Assembly (NCBI RefSeq): GCF_001050275.1
Contig: NZ_BBYA01000009.1
Location: 310,001 to 374,000, forward strand
Length of the DNA stretch: 64,000 nucleotides
Source of the DNA: Leptolinea tardivitalis
Lineage (GTDB): Bacteria; Chloroflexota; Anaerolineae; Anaerolineales; Anaerolineaceae
Reading direction: 5' to 3'
In this document: positions 34,293-58,688 of the stretch, piece by piece
Numbering within the stretch: the first letter of the stretch is position 1
Layout: each line of letters opens with the position of its first letter
Position numbers and translations under genes: made by a program
The notes under the pieces: model-generated
Databases searched by the model: none
What the model saw: only the letters and a program-made list of their open reading frames with translations
Told to the model about the DNA's origin: nothing

Positions 34293-34805
34293 ATGGAATT
34301 GAAATTGAAAAACTGTGTAATCCGGTCGTACCGACCGGAAGATGCCGGTTCTCTGGCCAAATATGCCAATAATCGAAATATCTCGAAAAATTTACGAGAT
34401 GGGTTTCCTTATCCTTACACGTTAGAAAACGGCAAGGCGTTTATAGACCATGCTATGTCATTGAAACCTGAAACCAATTTTGCCATCTGCGTGGATGACC
34501 AGGTTGTCGGCGGGATCGGGTTTGTGCTGCATTCGGATATTGAACGAATCTCTGCCGAAATCGGGTACTGGTTGGGGGAGCCCTTCTGGGGTCAAGGCAT
34601 TGTGACAGAGGCACTTGTGGCTGTTACTGAATATGCCATCAAGACACATAACCTGCACCGGGTTTTTGCCGTCCCATTTGCGCATAACAGGGCATCCGCC
34701 CGGGTTCTTGAAAAAGCCGGTTACCAATTGGAAGGCAGAATGCGCAGCAGCGCCATCAAAGATGGCGTGGTGATCGATCAATTCTTATATGCCTATGTGG
34801 TTTAA
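34293..34805 (+). CDS. GNAT family N-acetyltransferase (RimJ/RimL-like)
   Basis: A 170-residue acetyltransferase. The fold runs from VIRSYRPEDAGSLAKYANN through GIGFVLHSD, EIGYWLGEPFWGQGIVTEA (acetyl-CoA pyrophosphate loop region) and AVPFAHNRASARVLEKAGYQLEGRM. This Acetyltransf_3 group acetylates protein N-termini or small amines. TTGAGGG precedes the ATG. The gene is 24 bp behind the DUF1330 gene. Confidence 0.92.
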   Translation: MELKLKNCVIRSYRPEDAGSLAKYANNRNISKNLRDGFPYPYTLENGKAFIDHAMSLKPETNFAICVDDQVVGGIGFVLHSDIERISAEIGYWLGEPFWGQGIVTEALVAVTEYAIKTHNLHRVFAVPFAHNRASARVLEKAGYQLEGRMRSSAIKDGVVIDQFLYAYVV

Positions 34806-34835: not shown

Positions 34836-35175
34836 CCCTGTCGTAGGGGCGCACGGCCGTGCGCCCCTACGTTTGTTTTCGGGCTCCCTGACGTTAAGGC
34901 CGGGGCCAGGAAATCTGTAAAAATTCATGCATATCTGCTGGTAAGGCAAAGAGAGTCTTTCCGCGATGGTTTCATCCTGACCCTGTTGCAGGGCGCACGG
35001 CCGTGCGCCCCTACGTTTGTTTTCGGGCTCCCTGACGTTAAGGCCGGGAACAGGAAATCTGTAAAAATCCATGCATATCTGCCGGTAAGGCAAAGAAAGT
35101 CTTTCTGCGATGGTTTCATCCTGACCCTGTTGCAGGGCGCACAGCCGTGCGCCCCTACACTTGCTTGTTGGAACA
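34836..35175. repeat. Tandem repeat, about 144-bp unit, 2.3 copies
   Basis: Copy 1 covers 34836-34980, copy 2 34981-35124, and a truncated copy 3 begins at 35125 and fades after the palindrome. Copies 1 and 2 are nearly identical. Each starts with a GC-rich palindrome and continues through TTTGTTTTCGGGCTCCC and a CATGCATATCTGC segment. The unit is 48 codons long, so frames stay open through it and produce repetitive pseudo-ORFs. I see no transposase or target-site duplication. Confidence 0.9.
34843..34870. repeat. 28-bp perfect palindrome (REP-like core of the repeat)
   Basis: Arms GTAGGGGCGCACGG / CCGTGCGCCCCTAC meet without spacer. Near copies recur at about 34989-35014 and 35133-35158 (one arm base changed in the last). 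GC-rich palindromes of this style are dispersed in many Chloroflexota and other bacterial genomes (general knowledge). Confidence 0.85.
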
Positions 35176-35387
35176 CATTGTCTAATTAGTAATGGCAGGT
35201 TTCAAACCCACCGTCCAGTTTTAACCTTCCGGATGATATCGCGGATGTTGTTTTTCCCCTACCTGGATTTATTTCACCAATATTGAAGAAATCCGGAGAG
35301 AACCTCTTATCAGGTGGATATTCAATCAAAAATGTGGAAAAACAAATCCAATATCTTCGACCGGGTTATAACTGGTAATCAATAAGT

Positions 35388-35415
35388 TTGACAACCTTTT
35401 CCTGTTATTTATAAT
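35388..35415 (+). promoter_or_regulatory. Near-consensus promoter of the beta-helix protein leader
   Basis: TTGACA (35388-35393), a 16-bp spacer and a perfect TATAAT (35410-35415). Transcription would start near 35422, some 455 nt before the start codon of the next gene. Confidence 0.75.
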
Positions 35416-35421
35416 GAAATT

Positions 35422-35618
35422 GTCATCCAGGGAACGAAGAGCATTGTATTGCTTCAGGTAGACATTACTCCTTTTCAACCCTATAAAGCCCTCAACATAC
35501 TATTCCTGTTGAAAGCCAGGATCTGTCACCAATAATTGGTCGCTTACCCTGAATAACAGGGGTTGGTGGCAGGGAGCCAGTAGCGAAACCGGTCATGTAG
35601 ATTGACCGGTTGTTTTTT
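35422..35618 (+). ncRNA. Structured leader RNA, riboswitch- or attenuator-like, class unknown
   Basis: It begins at the predicted transcription start and ends at an intrinsic terminator. Visible helices are CACCAA (35527-35532) with TTGGTG (35563-35568), enclosing CCCTG/CAGGG (35547-35551, 35557-35561). TCGCT (35540-35544) can pair with AGCGA (35582-35586), which would make a pseudoknot and competes with the foot of the terminator stem. This is the arrangement of an aptamer plus expression platform. I could not match it to the conserved cores I know for c-di-GMP, TPP, SAM, FMN, lysine or cobalamin riboswitches. A stand-alone small RNA is the alternative. Confidence 0.5.
35587..35618 (+). terminator. 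Intrinsic terminator inside the leader
   Basis: Stem AACCGGTCA (35587-35595) / TGACCGGTT (35603-35611), a 7-nt loop, then GTTTTTT (35612-35618). It lies 260 bp before the coding sequence. Confidence 0.88.
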
Positions 35619-35877
35619 ATATGGAGGTACTGGACCTTCCCAGGCAAATTGATCCTTGGTGTTTGTAAGAATCAATCCCACCATCCCGAAAGCAAACAGG
35701 TTTCCCGAGGTGGGAAGGAGGTGATACAGGGCAAAAAAGTAAAGCCGGATTGCCAGCCGGCAGACAGGCCGCAGAAGTGTAAATGGCAATGCTGGAAAAA
35801 ATGGCCTTTATAGGGTGAAAACTCCGATCTGGTTCCAGTTTTCTTGCATTGATTCATCTCAAACAGGAGGTTAATAC
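35619..35877 (+). promoter_or_regulatory. Second part of the leader, hairpins and Shine-Dalgarno-like element
   Basis: A perfect 7-bp stem TCCCACC (35676-35682) / GGTGGGA (35709-35715) is followed directly by AAGGAGGTGAT (about 35714-35724), which fully matches the expected anti-Shine-Dalgarno but has no start codon at normal spacing. GCCGG-rich inverted repeats follow near 35743-35762. The actual ribosome binding site of the downstream gene is AGGAGG at about 35865-35870. Confidence 0.5.
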
Positions 35878-38568
35878 ATGGGCAAGAAAAAATGGTATGT
35901 GATCCTGTTTTATGTTGTATTTGTCTGCATCTATGCTCTGGGGCTTTCCATTCCCATAGGCATGGTGGTTTTGGCGGATGATACTGCTCCAGCTGACCCG
36001 GCCAGTGAGGAAGTCGCGCCGGAAGAACCACCTCCGGAGCAAGTTCCAGAAGATTCTCCAGCAGAAGGAAGTTCTGGAGAATCTTCTTCGTCTGGTACTG
36101 TGTATTATGAACCCGCACCGGTGATACAACCGCCTGTGGTTGTTGAACAGCCAGTGCAGCCTCCCGCATCGGTTGAACAACCTCCAGCGGACGTTCAACA
36201 AGAACCCGCCGCTCCGGTTCAGCCTGAGGTTGTGGTAACAGAACAGCCGGCAGCACTCGATCCGTCAGCCGCCACAACAACAGAATCCACCGCTGGTTCA
36301 TCAGAGAAGCAAACAGGAACGGATGGTCAGGAGACCGGAAATGCTGAACCTGAAACCGGAGGTGCTCCTGTAATGGCGAGTCCTGTTATCCAGTCAGGAT
36401 CAGTCCTCCCGGTTGATTCATTCCAACCCCCAATTAATGTCGAAGAAGTTGCTGAACTGTCTACAAAATCGCCGGTAGATTTGAGTGCAGCCCTGCCAGA
36501 AGGAACCAGCCTTGTGGTGCTGGATGAAACTGGAGAAAATCTTGCGCTGGGATCAACAGAAGCTGAAGCGGTTCTGACCACAGGTGATCCAATGTGGTGT
36601 CCGGGCCATGATGCCGCGGGGAGTGCCTCGTGCCATTCAGAAACCACCCTGGAAGCGATCATTCACTATGTCCAGAGCAGCCCGTCGAGAGGTTACGGAA
36701 CGATCTATGTGCAGGATACCTATACATCTCCGACCCATAATACGATTAACATCGATCAGGGTTCGCATCCTATGACGATACTGAATTTGTTCATCATCGG
36801 CGGGGTAGATCTGGCTACGGGAAGTTCTACCTACGGGCAGGTGATTGGTACAACCACCCTGGCACAAAATATCTACATTGATGATATTTCTGGCTCGTTG
36901 TCCCTTTCGAACTTCATCCTTCAGCAATTCAGTACCAGCGGAAGTTCTGTTTATATATCTGATTCGAATCAAGTCACCTTAGACAATATGGCTATCAATA
37001 ATCAGGGCTTGGGAAACGGTGTTCATATTGAAAACAGTAACAACGTTACCATCAAAAACTCAACCATTGATGATGAAGATGGCGGCCATGGCATTTATGC
37101 TCATAGTAATACGAACAATCTCCAAATAATCAACACTCATATCTATGAGTACGGCTATGAAGGTGGTATCTATCTGAATGATGTAGACAATGTTCTTTTG
37201 AAAGACCTGATTGTTGACTCCAATGGCAATACACCCTGTGTAAGCGGATGGCCCTGCTCCAGCGATGCCATTCGAGTTGTTAATGGCTCGAATCTTGAAG
37301 TGCGGAATGTGAATGCCAACAGTTCATCTTCAGGAGCCAGTGGTCTGGTGGCAAACGGCGTCAGCGGATATATTAATATCTTCAACAGTACATTTGACAA
37401 TAACAATAATTTTGGCATTGATATCAATAGCCAGACTGCTGACGTTACTATCAAGAATACATCCACATCGCATAACTCTAATAACGGCAGTTCCTGGGGA
37501 ATGTACGTGGAAGGAGCCAAGACCATTTCGCTCGATGGAGTCCACGCGGATCACAATGTAGACGGTGGTGCCTACTTAATTGCAAGTGATTGGATCAGCA
37601 TTCTCAACTCTACGTTTTCAGACAATCCGAATTTCTATGGACTGGCTGCCTGGGCAATGAATCAGGGTATCACATTGAGCAACGTAACGGTGGACAACAA
37701 CAATTTCGGCGGCTGGTTTAAAACTGCAACAGAATTATCCATCTCAAAAAGCCAGTTCAACGGAAATCATGACTATGGTATTCATGTAGAACCCGGTGCC
37801 GTCGGTGATATCACCCTGTACAAAGTGACTGCCTCTGAGAATGGAACCAATGGAGCTGAACTTCAAACTGCCGGCGATATTACCGTGACGTGCAGTGTCT
37901 TTTCGGCTAATGATTCTTACGGCCTTAATGCCGGGGCGGGTTCAACTGTCACGCTAAATTCCAATACCTTCAGTGCCAACGGTTCGGGAAGCATGAATAT
38001 CTGGGATGGTGGTGTTGTCACGAATATGGATTATCCGTGCGGAACCAGCAGTGGCGGCGGTGATGACGATGGCGGTACGACAACAGTCACTCCGGTGGAA
38101 TATATCGGAGTCATCCCATTTGTTTATCTTGGCCCTCCTGCCGGTGTTATTCCAGTAACCGGCGGTGAATTTGTGATGCTTTCCTGCACAGGGAACAGTA
38201 CAATCCGCCTGCCTACCGGCGAAGAGACCATTTTCAACCAACCCATGTGCGGTTACATCGCCGGAATGGAATTGATTACTCAGGAGGAATTGCCTGCGCC
38301 CATTCCTGAACCCTGGATCTTCACAGATGGATTTACCCTCACATTGATGTTCAATAACGAAGTGGTTCTTGAGGCGTTTGCCGGTGCCACATACACGGTT
38401 ACCTTCCCGCTCACAGAAGAACAAATTAATGACACCTTTCATATTCTGTTCTGGGACACCACCACCAATGATAACCTGGGCGGCTGGGTCGATCTTGGCG
38501 GAGAAAAAGAGGCTATGAAGTGGATCCGGACACACAACCGGACAGGTACATTTATCCTCGTCAAATGA
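35878..38568 (+). CDS. Secreted right-handed beta-helix repeat protein
   Basis: An 896-residue surface or secreted protein. An N-terminal signal or anchor helix ends near residue 33 (WYVILFYVVFVCIYALGL). Residues about 35-160 are a Pro/Glu/Ala/Ser-rich linker. From about 240 to 720 it has many NITIKNSTID-, LSNFIL- and VTIKNTSTSHN-like repeats of about 22-24 residues, a pectate-lyase-type right-handed beta-helix as in adhesins and polysaccharide-binding proteins. GGGDDDGGTTT forms a hinge, then a 150-residue C-terminal module starts near IPVTGGEFVMLSC and ends HNRTGTFILVK. There is no LPxTG sorting signal. A strong AGGAGG ribosome binding site follows a long structured leader. No catalytic residues are identifiable. 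Confidence 0.85.
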   Translation: MGKKKWYVILFYVVFVCIYALGLSIPIGMVVLADDTAPADPASEEVAPEEPPPEQVPEDSPAEGSSGESSSSGTVYYEPAPVIQPPVVVEQPVQPPASVEQPPADVQQEPAAPVQPEVVVTEQPAALDPSAATTTESTAGSSEKQTGTDGQETGNAEPETGGAPVMASPVIQSGSVLPVDSFQPPINVEEVAELSTKSPVDLSAALPEGTSLVVLDETGENLALGSTEAEAVLTTGDPMWCPGHDAAGSASCHSETTLEAIIHYVQSSPSRGYGTIYVQDTYTSPTHNTINIDQGSHPMTILNLFIIGGVDLATGSSTYGQVIGTTTLAQNIYIDDISGSLSLSNFILQQFSTSGSSVYISDSNQVTLDNMAINNQGLGNGVHIENSNNVTIKNSTIDDEDGGHGIYAHSNTNNLQIINTHIYEYGYEGGIYLNDVDNVLLKDLIVDSNGNTPCVSGWPCSSDAIRVVNGSNLEVRNVNANSSSSGASGLVANGVSGYINIFNSTFDNNNNFGIDINSQTADVTIKNTSTSHNSNNGSSWGMYVEGAKTISLDGVHADHNVDGGAYLIASDWISILNSTFSDNPNFYGLAAWAMNQGITLSNVTVDNNNFGGWFKTATELSISKSQFNGNHDYGIHVEPGAVGDITLYKVTASENGTNGAELQTAGDITVTCSVFSANDSYGLNAGAGSTVTLNSNTFSANGSGSMNIWDGGVVTNMDYPCGTSSGGGDDDGGTTTVTPVEYIGVIPFVYLGPPAGVIPVTGGEFVMLSCTGNSTIRLPTGEETIFNQPMCGYIAGMELITQEELPAPIPEPWIFTDGFTLTLMFNNEVVLEAFAGATYTVTFPLTEEQINDTFHILFWDTTTNDNLGGWVDLGGEKEAMKWIRTHNRTGTFILVK

Positions 38569-56645: not shown

Positions 56646-58688
56646 TCATAATACTTCCACCCGGTTGCGTCCGCGTTTTTTAGCCTGATACATAGCCTGG
56701 TCTGCTCTGACTAAAAGATCTTCCAGGGTGGCGGTATTTTCATCTTTCCAGGCTACCCCAAGACTGGCCTGTAAATAATTATCATGACTGACACCGGGAA
56801 CTTTGATCTGGTGAAATTCATCCAGCAGGCGGATGGCGGCAGCCCGGGCTTCTATCAATGTAGTATCTGGCAGAAGGATACAAAATTCATCTCCACCATA
56901 ACGGCCTGCTGTATCGATCTTTCGGATAAATGCAGCCAGAACCTTGCCAACATCTGCCAGAACAGAGTCGCCAGCCTGGTGGCCGCAGGTATCATTAATC
57001 AGTTTAAAGTTGTCGATATCCAACATTATTATAGAGATTGGCGTATTATGTCTGCGTGATCGTTCGAATTCCTTTTCGGCGGCTTGAAGGAGACTTCTTC
57101 GATTATTGATGCCTGTGAGGGAATCAATGATGGCATTTTCTTCCATTTTTTGATACATACGGGCATTATCAATGGCAATACCCGCAAGATCTGCAAAGGC
57201 AATTAAACGGTCAGCTTCTTCATTGGAATTAAAGACATTGGCTTTATTAGAATCCAGGTTGAGGAAACCGATGACCTTGTTTTTTACCCTGATTGGTGCT
57301 CCCAGATAGCTCAACACATTTGGATTGGTAAAGTAATCTACTTTACGGGTATCGGGAATAAACATGGGTTGGCCGGTTTCATACATTTTCTTCAAATTTT
57401 CTACTTCCTCAACCTTGAATTTGGCTGCCTTTACCCAGTCTATTTCTTCAGGGCTGATATATCCATGAAAGATTTCCACATGAGCCACACCATTTTCTAT
57501 TAACAAGATGTTAGCCATATTACAGGGAAGGAATTCAAACACACTCGAAAGAATTCGTTCAAGGACTTCATTCAAGTTCAAGGTGCTGTTGACAGCCATT
57601 GAAACATCACGCAGTGCTTCGGCAAACAGCCGTCGTTCAATTTCAACTTTTTCTGTTTTTTTCCTTGAAGTGATATCTCGAATGGCTAAAAGCCAACCGG
57701 CAAATCCCCTATTTTCATCTGTAATCAATTGACCGTCAATTTCTAATGTTTGTGAGGATTCCAGAGTGGATTCCAGATGAAATCCGGTTTTCATGCTCAT
57801 CTTGTATTGAAGTCCGGGAATATTAATCAATCCTTCTTCCAGGTTGATACCCATCCAATTTTCCTGCGGGTAACGCAAAAGCTGCTGACCACTCCGGTTA
57901 ATATCGACGATGGCATTTTGGCCATCGACAACCACAAGCGATTCCGCCAAATTATCAAAAAGCATGCTTCTGGCAATCGGCGCAATTTCCAACAGACGGT
58001 ATTTATTTAAAGCGACAAAGACGAGCAATCCACTCAGGAAAAAGCCGATGGGAGTGATATCCAGATTCTTTATCAGCGGAATCCGCAGGACATATAGAAT
58101 ATTCGCCAGTAAAGGCGGAAGAATACTTAGGACAAAAATCAAGGATTGACTTTTGTGGATAGATAGTCGTGTGGCAAGATACTGCCTGGTGACAATGACA
58201 GACATTACCAGAAGAATCAGATAGTTGTAAATCAACCCGAGCCAGTACAACGGACCGCGTAAATAAACCAGCGTGTCATAGGGCGAGTCCGGGGGAGTAA
58301 CAAACCCCGACCAGATTAAATGATGGTAGTCATTGGTTGCCGCCAACAAGATCACGCAGATTGGTACGGCCCATAACAGGGCTAATTGTGTACGCGTCAT
58401 CTGGGGCCCGATTCTGAAGTATCTTGTAACAAACAGGAAGAAAAGTGGAAGGCAATTGAACACCCCAAAATAGCTGAATTTAGCAAAAAGCACTTTTAGT
58501 ATCTGGTCTTGAACCGCGCTTTCAAACCCTACAAAGAAGCTCCATTCTGCGATGAGTACCATGGCGAAACCTAAAAGAAGGGACTCTCTGTTTTTCCAGC
58601 GTAAAAACACCTGAATGGCCACGACCATTGAAAAGACGCCGGTGCCAATCAAACTAAGCGCGTACGGGTTGAAATTCCAATTGATCAA
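56646..58688 (-). CDS. Membrane diguanylate cyclase (histidine-kinase-type 7TM, PAS, GAF, GGDEF)
   Basis: A 680-residue signalling enzyme making c-di-GMP from GTP. The first 225 residues hold seven hydrophobic helices of the 7TM sensor type found in histidine kinases (ALLWAVPICVILLAATNDYHHLIW). A PAS-like domain covers about 235-345, GAF about 365-500 (PCNMANILLIE, YLGAPIRVKNKVIGFLNLDS), and GGDEF about 515-680 with ITGINNRRSLL, IMLDIDNFKLIND and the intact active motif RYGGDEF. No RxxD inhibitory site is evident five residues before it (RKIDTAGRYGGDEF has an Asp near). It may supply the signal for surface-protein control; no riboswitch match is proven. Confidence 0.93.
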   Translation of the reverse strand: MINWNFNPYALSLIGTGVFSMVVAIQVFLRWKNRESLLLGFAMVLIAEWSFFVGFESAVQDQILKVLFAKFSYFGVFNCLPLFFLFVTRYFRIGPQMTRTQLALLWAVPICVILLAATNDYHHLIWSGFVTPPDSPYDTLVYLRGPLYWLGLIYNYLILLVMSVIVTRQYLATRLSIHKSQSLIFVLSILPPLLANILYVLRIPLIKNLDITPIGFFLSGLLVFVALNKYRLLEIAPIARSMLFDNLAESLVVVDGQNAIVDINRSGQQLLRYPQENWMGINLEEGLINIPGLQYKMSMKTGFHLESTLESSQTLEIDGQLITDENRGFAGWLLAIRDITSRKKTEKVEIERRLFAEALRDVSMAVNSTLNLNEVLERILSSVFEFLPCNMANILLIENGVAHVEIFHGYISPEEIDWVKAAKFKVEEVENLKKMYETGQPMFIPDTRKVDYFTNPNVLSYLGAPIRVKNKVIGFLNLDSNKANVFNSNEEADRLIAFADLAGIAIDNARMYQKMEENAIIDSLTGINNRRSLLQAAEKEFERSRRHNTPISIIMLDIDNFKLINDTCGHQAGDSVLADVGKVLAAFIRKIDTAGRYGGDEFCILLPDTTLIEARAAAIRLLDEFHQIKVPGVSHDNYLQASLGVAWKDENTATLEDLLVRADQAMYQAKKRGRNRVEVL

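Follow-up and report, generated by a model that had tools for sequence, protein, structure and literature searches.

Class II c-di-GMP riboswitches of C. difficile act as transcriptional ON switches, with one exception, and their targets are adhesins, pili and the CmrRST regulators, as set out in the available sections of a review that cites the underlying experiments (PMC11477304). In B. thuringiensis, according to the available portion of a report on the Bc2 riboswitch, the terminator ahead of cap, a collagen adhesion gene, is opened when c-di-GMP acts on that riboswitch (PMC4933901). The leader element described here is flanked upstream by a GNAT acetyltransferase gene, whose stop is at 34805, and downstream by a gene for a beta-helix protein, which starts at 35878. 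It resembles the C. difficile riboswitches (CD2831, CD3246, CmrRST and the type IV pilus operon; available sections of PMC11477304) in its ON readout, which is predicted here, and in its targets, which are surface proteins and response regulators. It differs from them in phylum, in target proteins, and in that their function rests on the experiments cited in that review whereas the function proposed here rests on inference. With Bc2 it shares the predicted opening of a terminator by c-di-GMP before a putative adhesin gene, although the Bc2 aptamer belongs to class I and its fold is unrelated. The available text of the literature on Anaerolineae or Chloroflexi, c-di-GMP and riboswitches yielded no description of the element.

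We interpret the leader element as a class II c-di-GMP riboswitch, a known class, acting as a transcriptional ON switch, and put the probability of this reading at about 0.9. The following features of the window, meaning the entire 64,000-nucleotide stretch of DNA that was analyzed, bear on it:

35388-35415, + strand: sigma-70-type promoter, TTGACA-16 nt-TATAAT, 12 of 12 consensus letters
35502-35603, + strand: class II c-di-GMP aptamer (Rfam clan CL00127), from Rfam and a relatives-only model
35510-35512, + strand: P1 5' strand UGA, pairs with UCA at 35593-35595
35515-35516, + strand: P2 5' strand GC, pairs with 35576-35577
35523-35530, + strand: P3 5' strand CUGUCACC, pairs with 35565-35572; changes on both sides at each of its 8 pairs
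35540-35544, + strand: pseudoknot 5' strand UCGCU, pairs with AGCGA at 35582-35586
35547-35561, + strand: accessory hairpin CCCUG-AAUAA-CAGGG, an insert within the P3 loop, 3' of the pseudoknot strand
35565-35572, + strand: P3 3' strand GGUGGCAG, pairs with 35523-35530
35576-35577, + strand: P2 3' strand, pairs with 35515-35516
35582-35586, + strand: pseudoknot 3' strand AGCGA; 35586 is N68
35587-35591, + strand: pocket residues A69, A70, C71, C72 and G73; A69 in 101 of 103 aptamers, the other four in 103 of 103
35587-35618, + strand: intrinsic terminator, a 9-bp stem (35587-35595/35603-35611) and a T run, starting at A69
35593-35595, + strand: P1 3' strand UCA, also part of the terminator 5' arm
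35865-35870, + strand: ribosome-binding site AGGAGG, from the sequence
35878-38568, + strand: predicted target gene, encoding 896 aa: an N-terminal hydrophobic segment and a Pro/Glu-rich stretch, followed by Beta_helix (PF13229)
56661-57134, - strand: GGDEF domain in a 712-codon open frame, a possible source of c-di-GMP

The preliminary description had proposed an undescribed riboswitch, perhaps a new class, in which neither a GEMM-I nor a GEMM-II core could be seen. The GEMM-II core is present as GGAGCCAGUAGCGAAACCGG with its pseudoknot, and Rfam recognizes it. Matches to the known clan CL00127, of the kind that had been named in advance as counting against novelty, lead us to reject a new class. 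The question raised by the leader is answered by a known sensor class, and the interest lies in the breadth of its linkage to surface proteins within the family. At curated cut-offs, the sole Rfam element in the whole window is c-di-GMP-II-GAG (RF03169) at 35502-35603, with 41.5 bits against a cut-off of 40. The c-di-GMP-II family itself (RF01786) reaches 45.2 bits (E = 9.4e-9 in a 501-base stretch) and stays below its gathering score of 53.5, which is a curator's threshold rather than a biochemical trait. Searching 35380-35880 up to E = 5 gave no family outside clan CL00127; a class I (GEMM-I) riboswitch is rejected because no class I family matched in that interval at that limit. Since the Rfam score was borderline, a model was built from 20 relatives, leaving out the window and its paralogue on contig C13 of the same genome. 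This relatives-only model scores the window at 74.4 bits (E = 4.9e-21), and the next best place in the window has E = 0.027.

P1, P2, P3 and a pseudoknot between the P3 loop and the 3' strand follow one another in the same order as in RF01786, with P1 weak and P2 carrying one mismatch (A35514 x C35578), and the conserved pocket strand A69-A70-C71-C72-G73 is likewise shared. P1, a helix absent from the preliminary description, is short in the window, consisting of three contiguous inner pairs, with 3 of 8 outer positions paired. Other departures from RF01786 are the closing pair of the pseudoknot, U-A here and G-C there, and the P3 loop, in which the window has an insert of 19 nt, including the accessory hairpin, and the Rfam model 1 nt. 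The nested helix seen in the preliminary description, CACCAA (35527-35532) opposite TTGGTG (35563-35568) enclosing CCCTG/CAGGG (35547-35561), is indeed present together with the pseudoknot TCGCT/AGCGA, and covariation supports P3 and the pseudoknot. Inserts of at least 14 nt occur in 67 of 103 aligned aptamers, and 43 of the 67 fold better than shuffles (p <= 0.05); because in the alignment the insert is shorter or missing in the remaining 36, the accessory hairpin is a trait of a subgroup and lies outside the core.

Absence of covariation had been foreseen as grounds for abandoning the riboswitch, and the opposite was found. Among 18 order-level aptamers, 81.0% of the cells of 27 pairs are paired, compared with 67.6% after shuffling, and 0 of 500 shuffles reach the observed value; for P1 the fraction is 62.8%, mostly in its inner part, and our claim is limited to the inner three pairs. 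A larger alignment of 103 matches (102 distinct rows) was made from the window and 85 of 176 loci, with non-Chloroflexota, untitled and some duplicate loci left out, and was scored over 19 pairs including the pseudoknot. Here 94.8% of cells are paired (31.7-43.8% in slid controls), 16 of 19 pairs have changes on both sides, and double-change cells number 461 against 126 +/- 12 shuffled (0 of 500 shuffles reach this), figures that lean towards the nested helices to which the alignment was fitted, the pseudoknot lying outside the model. Both the helices and the pseudoknot covary in these aptamers. A third copy of the element in the same genome reads UCGCA/UGCGA, compensatory to UCGCU/AGCGA of the window; in the counterpart of that copy in a same-genus genome, G348, the outer pseudoknot pair is lost.

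The nature of the ligand depends on whether the label of the one above-threshold Rfam match is taken at face value. Weinberg and colleagues reportedly described the GAG variant, or variant classes, in 2017. We take its hallmark, reading the name from the model consensus, to be G-A-G at N67-N69. The Rfam consensus lines read GUGC-AACCG in the canonical form and GCGAG-ACCG in GAG, and the window reads GCGAA-ACCG. A GAG variant with changed ligand specificity would agree with RF03169 being the only match above a gathering score, with the U-A closing pair of the pseudoknot, and with G-A at N67-N68. Against this, the consensus GCGAGACCG has G at N69, the base that separates GAG from GAA and from canonical GCA, and the window has A there (35587), giving G-A-A; 101 of 103 aligned aptamers also have A69, and the 2 with G both belong to one locus (L004). 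In addition, RF01786 outscores RF03169 on the window. N68 is A in 84 of the 103 aptamers, T in 15 and C in 4. It varies with its pseudoknot partner, and so reports pairing rather than ligand: among the matches listed, 174 core hits have U-A in 154 cases, A-U in 15, G-C in 3 and C-A in 2, where the U-A count is inflated because the closing pair and some of the pseudoknot letters were preset in the search pattern. Rows from that pattern scan, which lists 80 of 119 stretches, are uninformative on the closing pair, and the A-U and G-C cases come from Rfam-found loci. Among the matches listed by the same scan, the GAA core also occurs in Actinomycetota, Halanaerobiales and others. A GAG variant with altered specificity is thus very unlikely, and we reject it on A69. 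The counts suggest that aptamers without G69 are among those that the Rfam GAG model gathers at its cut-off.

As the GAG name fails at its defining base, c-di-GMP is the expected ligand. The available part of a review tabulates the ligand contacts in 3Q3Z as A13, A14, U37, G39, U60, A61, C68, A69, A70, C71, C72, G73 and A74 (PMC7288161). When positions are counted from C68-A69-A70-C71-C72-G73 on the Rfam consensus, U37, G39 and A61 correspond to 35537, 35539 and 35579 and are kept in the window, and U60, C68 and A74 are changed (A13 and A14 fall outside the count). Placement of U37, G39 and A61 was aided by what we take to be the sequence of the C. acetobutylicum aptamer. The fold could in principle be kept while another cyclic dinucleotide or a linear product is preferred, as the GAA core and the inserted hairpin depart from the Rfam consensus and the available sections of the review report weaker discrimination among analogues for a C. 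difficile class II aptamer than for a class I aptamer (PMC11477304). We consider this quite improbable, given that U37, G39, A61, A69, A70, C71, C72 and G73 are unchanged, though U60, C68 and A74 are not, and that a c-di-GMP pathway is present in the genome, with 24 GGDEF matches and 3 EAL matches over the cut-off; there are also 2 PilZ matches. The suggestion in the preliminary description that c-di-GMP was the natural guess, given a GGDEF protein elsewhere in the window, has held up as a guess: the class II fold and pocket residues are kept, and the match at 56661-57134 (-) is one of the 24.

The link between ligand binding and gene expression is predicted from the position of the terminator, whose presence in the leader had been noted before. 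The hairpin has a free energy of -13.5 kcal/mol and is followed by TTTTTT at 35613-35618. Its 5' arm (35587-35595) consists of A69-A70-C71-C72-G73 and the P1 3' strand, and so lies inside what would be the ligand-bound aptamer core. Because the arm begins exactly at the pocket strand, the terminator and the ligand pocket are mutually exclusive. The earlier view that the terminator foot overlaps the pseudoknot strand needs correction for the window, where the two only abut (35586/35587) and the hairpin starts in the pocket residues. At three other loci (L022, L042 and L055) the hairpin can extend to take in the pseudoknot strand (as AGCGAAACC...GGTTTCGCT or nearly so), the arrangement that had been imagined for the window; in L042 and L055 a T run is absent by the terminator criteria used.

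In the mechanism we propose, RNA polymerase would start near 35422, a position assumed from the promoter, and transcribe the aptamer. If c-di-GMP is available, the helices P1, P2 and P3 would close around it together with the UCGCU/AGCGA pseudoknot and hold A69-A70-C71-C72-G73 together with the P1 3' strand (35587-35595), so that the terminator would be blocked and the beta-helix protein made. Without ligand, the 3' arm (35603-35611) would capture 35587-35595 and transcription would end near 35613-35618. From this layout, c-di-GMP most likely switches the gene ON. Taken whole, the 199-nt leader has only a moderate folding advantage over shuffled versions (z = -2.2, with 3 of 200 as good), and when it is folded without constraints the minimum-energy structure is the terminator without the aptamer, as is expected of free energy alone when no ligand is present.

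Arrangements of this kind recur among the 174 core hits. Of the 48 Rfam-found loci, 27 have a hairpin with a T-rich tail whose first base is A69 itself (shuffles 2.4%). The same holds for 36 of 44 Chloroflexota pattern-scan rows among the matches listed (2.0%) and for 22 of 44 untitled rows (2.6%), but for just 4 of the 38 rows that come from other phyla among the matches listed (1.1%). A looser count, in which the hairpin may begin as much as 5 nt beyond A69 and which covers 130 of the 174 hits (the remaining 44, untitled, being in the exact-start count), gives 40 of 48 (12.2%) for the Rfam-found loci and, among the matches listed, 38 of 44 (10.7%) for Chloroflexota and 6 of 38 (3.0%) for other phyla. 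No hairpin satisfied the terminator criteria in 8 of the 48 Rfam-found loci, 6 of the 44 Chloroflexota rows and 20 of the 44 untitled rows; the lack of a terminator in 32 of the 38 rows from other phyla, among the matches listed, indicates that the readout is lineage-specific. All three copies in the window genome and all three in G348 carry an aptamer-linked terminator hairpin.

A terminator and alternative pairings in a leader would also occur in a protein- or translation-dependent attenuator, or at the end of an independent gene, as had been considered earlier. The aptamer covariation speaks against either; a promoter with 12 of 12 consensus letters at 35388-35415, earlier called near-consensus, lies between the upstream stop (34805) and the leader; and the linkage of aptamer to terminator and gene is preserved in G348 as well as in the paralogues. 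We regard these explanations as extremely unlikely and reject a terminator of the upstream gene on account of the separate promoter after 34805 and the linkage kept in G348. The evidence as a whole bears out a riboswitch with the layout for transcription termination. The leaders of the C13 paralogue and two in G348 are preceded by a similar promoter layout, TTGACAACC...TATAATGA or TATACTGA.

Some further sequence elements surround the riboswitch. Upstream of the promoter, at 34846-35155, are three near-identical palindromes GGGGCGCACGGCCGTGCGCCCC (0, 1 and 2 mismatches) spaced 144 bp apart, with no further place within 2 mismatches elsewhere in the 64-kb window; they look like a repeat family or mobile palindrome. 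A possible UCAACA/UGUUGA hairpin at 35492-35512 would occupy the P1 5' strand. The same letters are found in the leader of the C13 paralogue and in two leaders of G348, without covariation, so the hairpin may be mere homology or an anti-P1 element. Downstream of the terminator, about 250 nt of leader (35619-35864) contain GC-rich inverted repeats, have 35% identity to the G348 orthologue, are longer in the window than there, and gave no Rfam match in the search of 35380-35880 up to E = 5.

The 896-aa product is a putative surface adhesin or matrix protein. Three aptamer copies were found in the 3.69-Mb window genome by the relatives-only model, two of them, the window copy and C13:33471, also by the Rfam models. 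The C13:33471 copy is followed first by the gene for an OmpR-type response regulator and next by that for a 1209-aa beta-helix paralogue, which is 40% identical to the window protein over 519 columns and 32% over 724. The third, C10:162324, is followed after 424 nt by the gene for a 974-aa RCC1-repeat protein, and between the two lies a 34-codon frame (L209:1881-1985) that has a good ribosome-binding site. Each copy sits before a putatively secreted protein, one of them behind a response regulator. A search of the genome contigs with the beta-helix protein gave 21 stretches, none of which was confirmed, and relatives of the protein occur in 20 of 151 genomes of the order. Compared with downstream proteins in relatives, the window protein is weakly similar in a Leptolinea contig (L110, best E = 0.003) and gave a best E of 0.50 in an Ornatilinea contig (L125).

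The same-genus genome G348 keeps all three switch-gene pairs, each terminator starting at A69 or one base later. The orthologue of the window protein is 46% identical, the C10 counterpart 68%, the C13 regulator 67% and the C13 beta-helix protein 39%. Between the two genomes the aptamer (35508-35595) is 85% identical and the terminator 84%, compared with 65% for the promoter, 55% for the leader before the aptamer and 35% after the terminator. In another same-genus genome (G377) the profile of relatives found no copy. Across the family, 43 of 61 sampled genomes, that of the window included, contain the element. An N-terminal hydrophobic segment, scored without a signal-peptide predictor, is present in 62 of 88 distinct downstream frames, compared with 32 among 146 other frames from those loci, the 88 having been chosen mechanically, so that some are surely wrong. 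Downstream frames in relatives include OmpR-type response regulators. In a domain scan of 55 proteins, namely the window protein and 54 of the 88 frames selected as plausible, Response_reg and Trans_reg_C are each matched by 7, and Ig-like, MBG, PKD, HYR or beta-helix domains occur in a few. The riboswitch class appears to precede many putative surface-protein genes in this bacterial family, and an apparently conserved, lineage-wide c-di-GMP surface-protein regulon is likely. A more speculative extension, which we consider improbable, is that the GAA-core, hairpin-inserted aptamers form a distinct Anaerolineae subclass of the c-di-GMP-II fold, unlike the described c-di-GMP-II in ligand preference or kinetics, that coordinates an entire surface-protein programme, often in tandem. 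The available text of one review assigns Anaerolineaceae to the core of photo- and aerobic granules and reports filamentous Anaerolinea from anammox granules (PMC11224092); c-di-GMP control of their surface proteins would therefore be a testable handle on granule formation.

Two observations concern the surroundings of individual copies. Double or triple aptamers follow in close succession at several loci (L036, L088, L119 and L008; G361:C13; G345:C14). In the window genome, GGDEF genes (L177:1721-4966 and L238:544-1740) lie about 0.5 kb from the C13 copy, in divergent orientation, and 2.1 kb from the C10 copy, and are possibly local sources of the signal.
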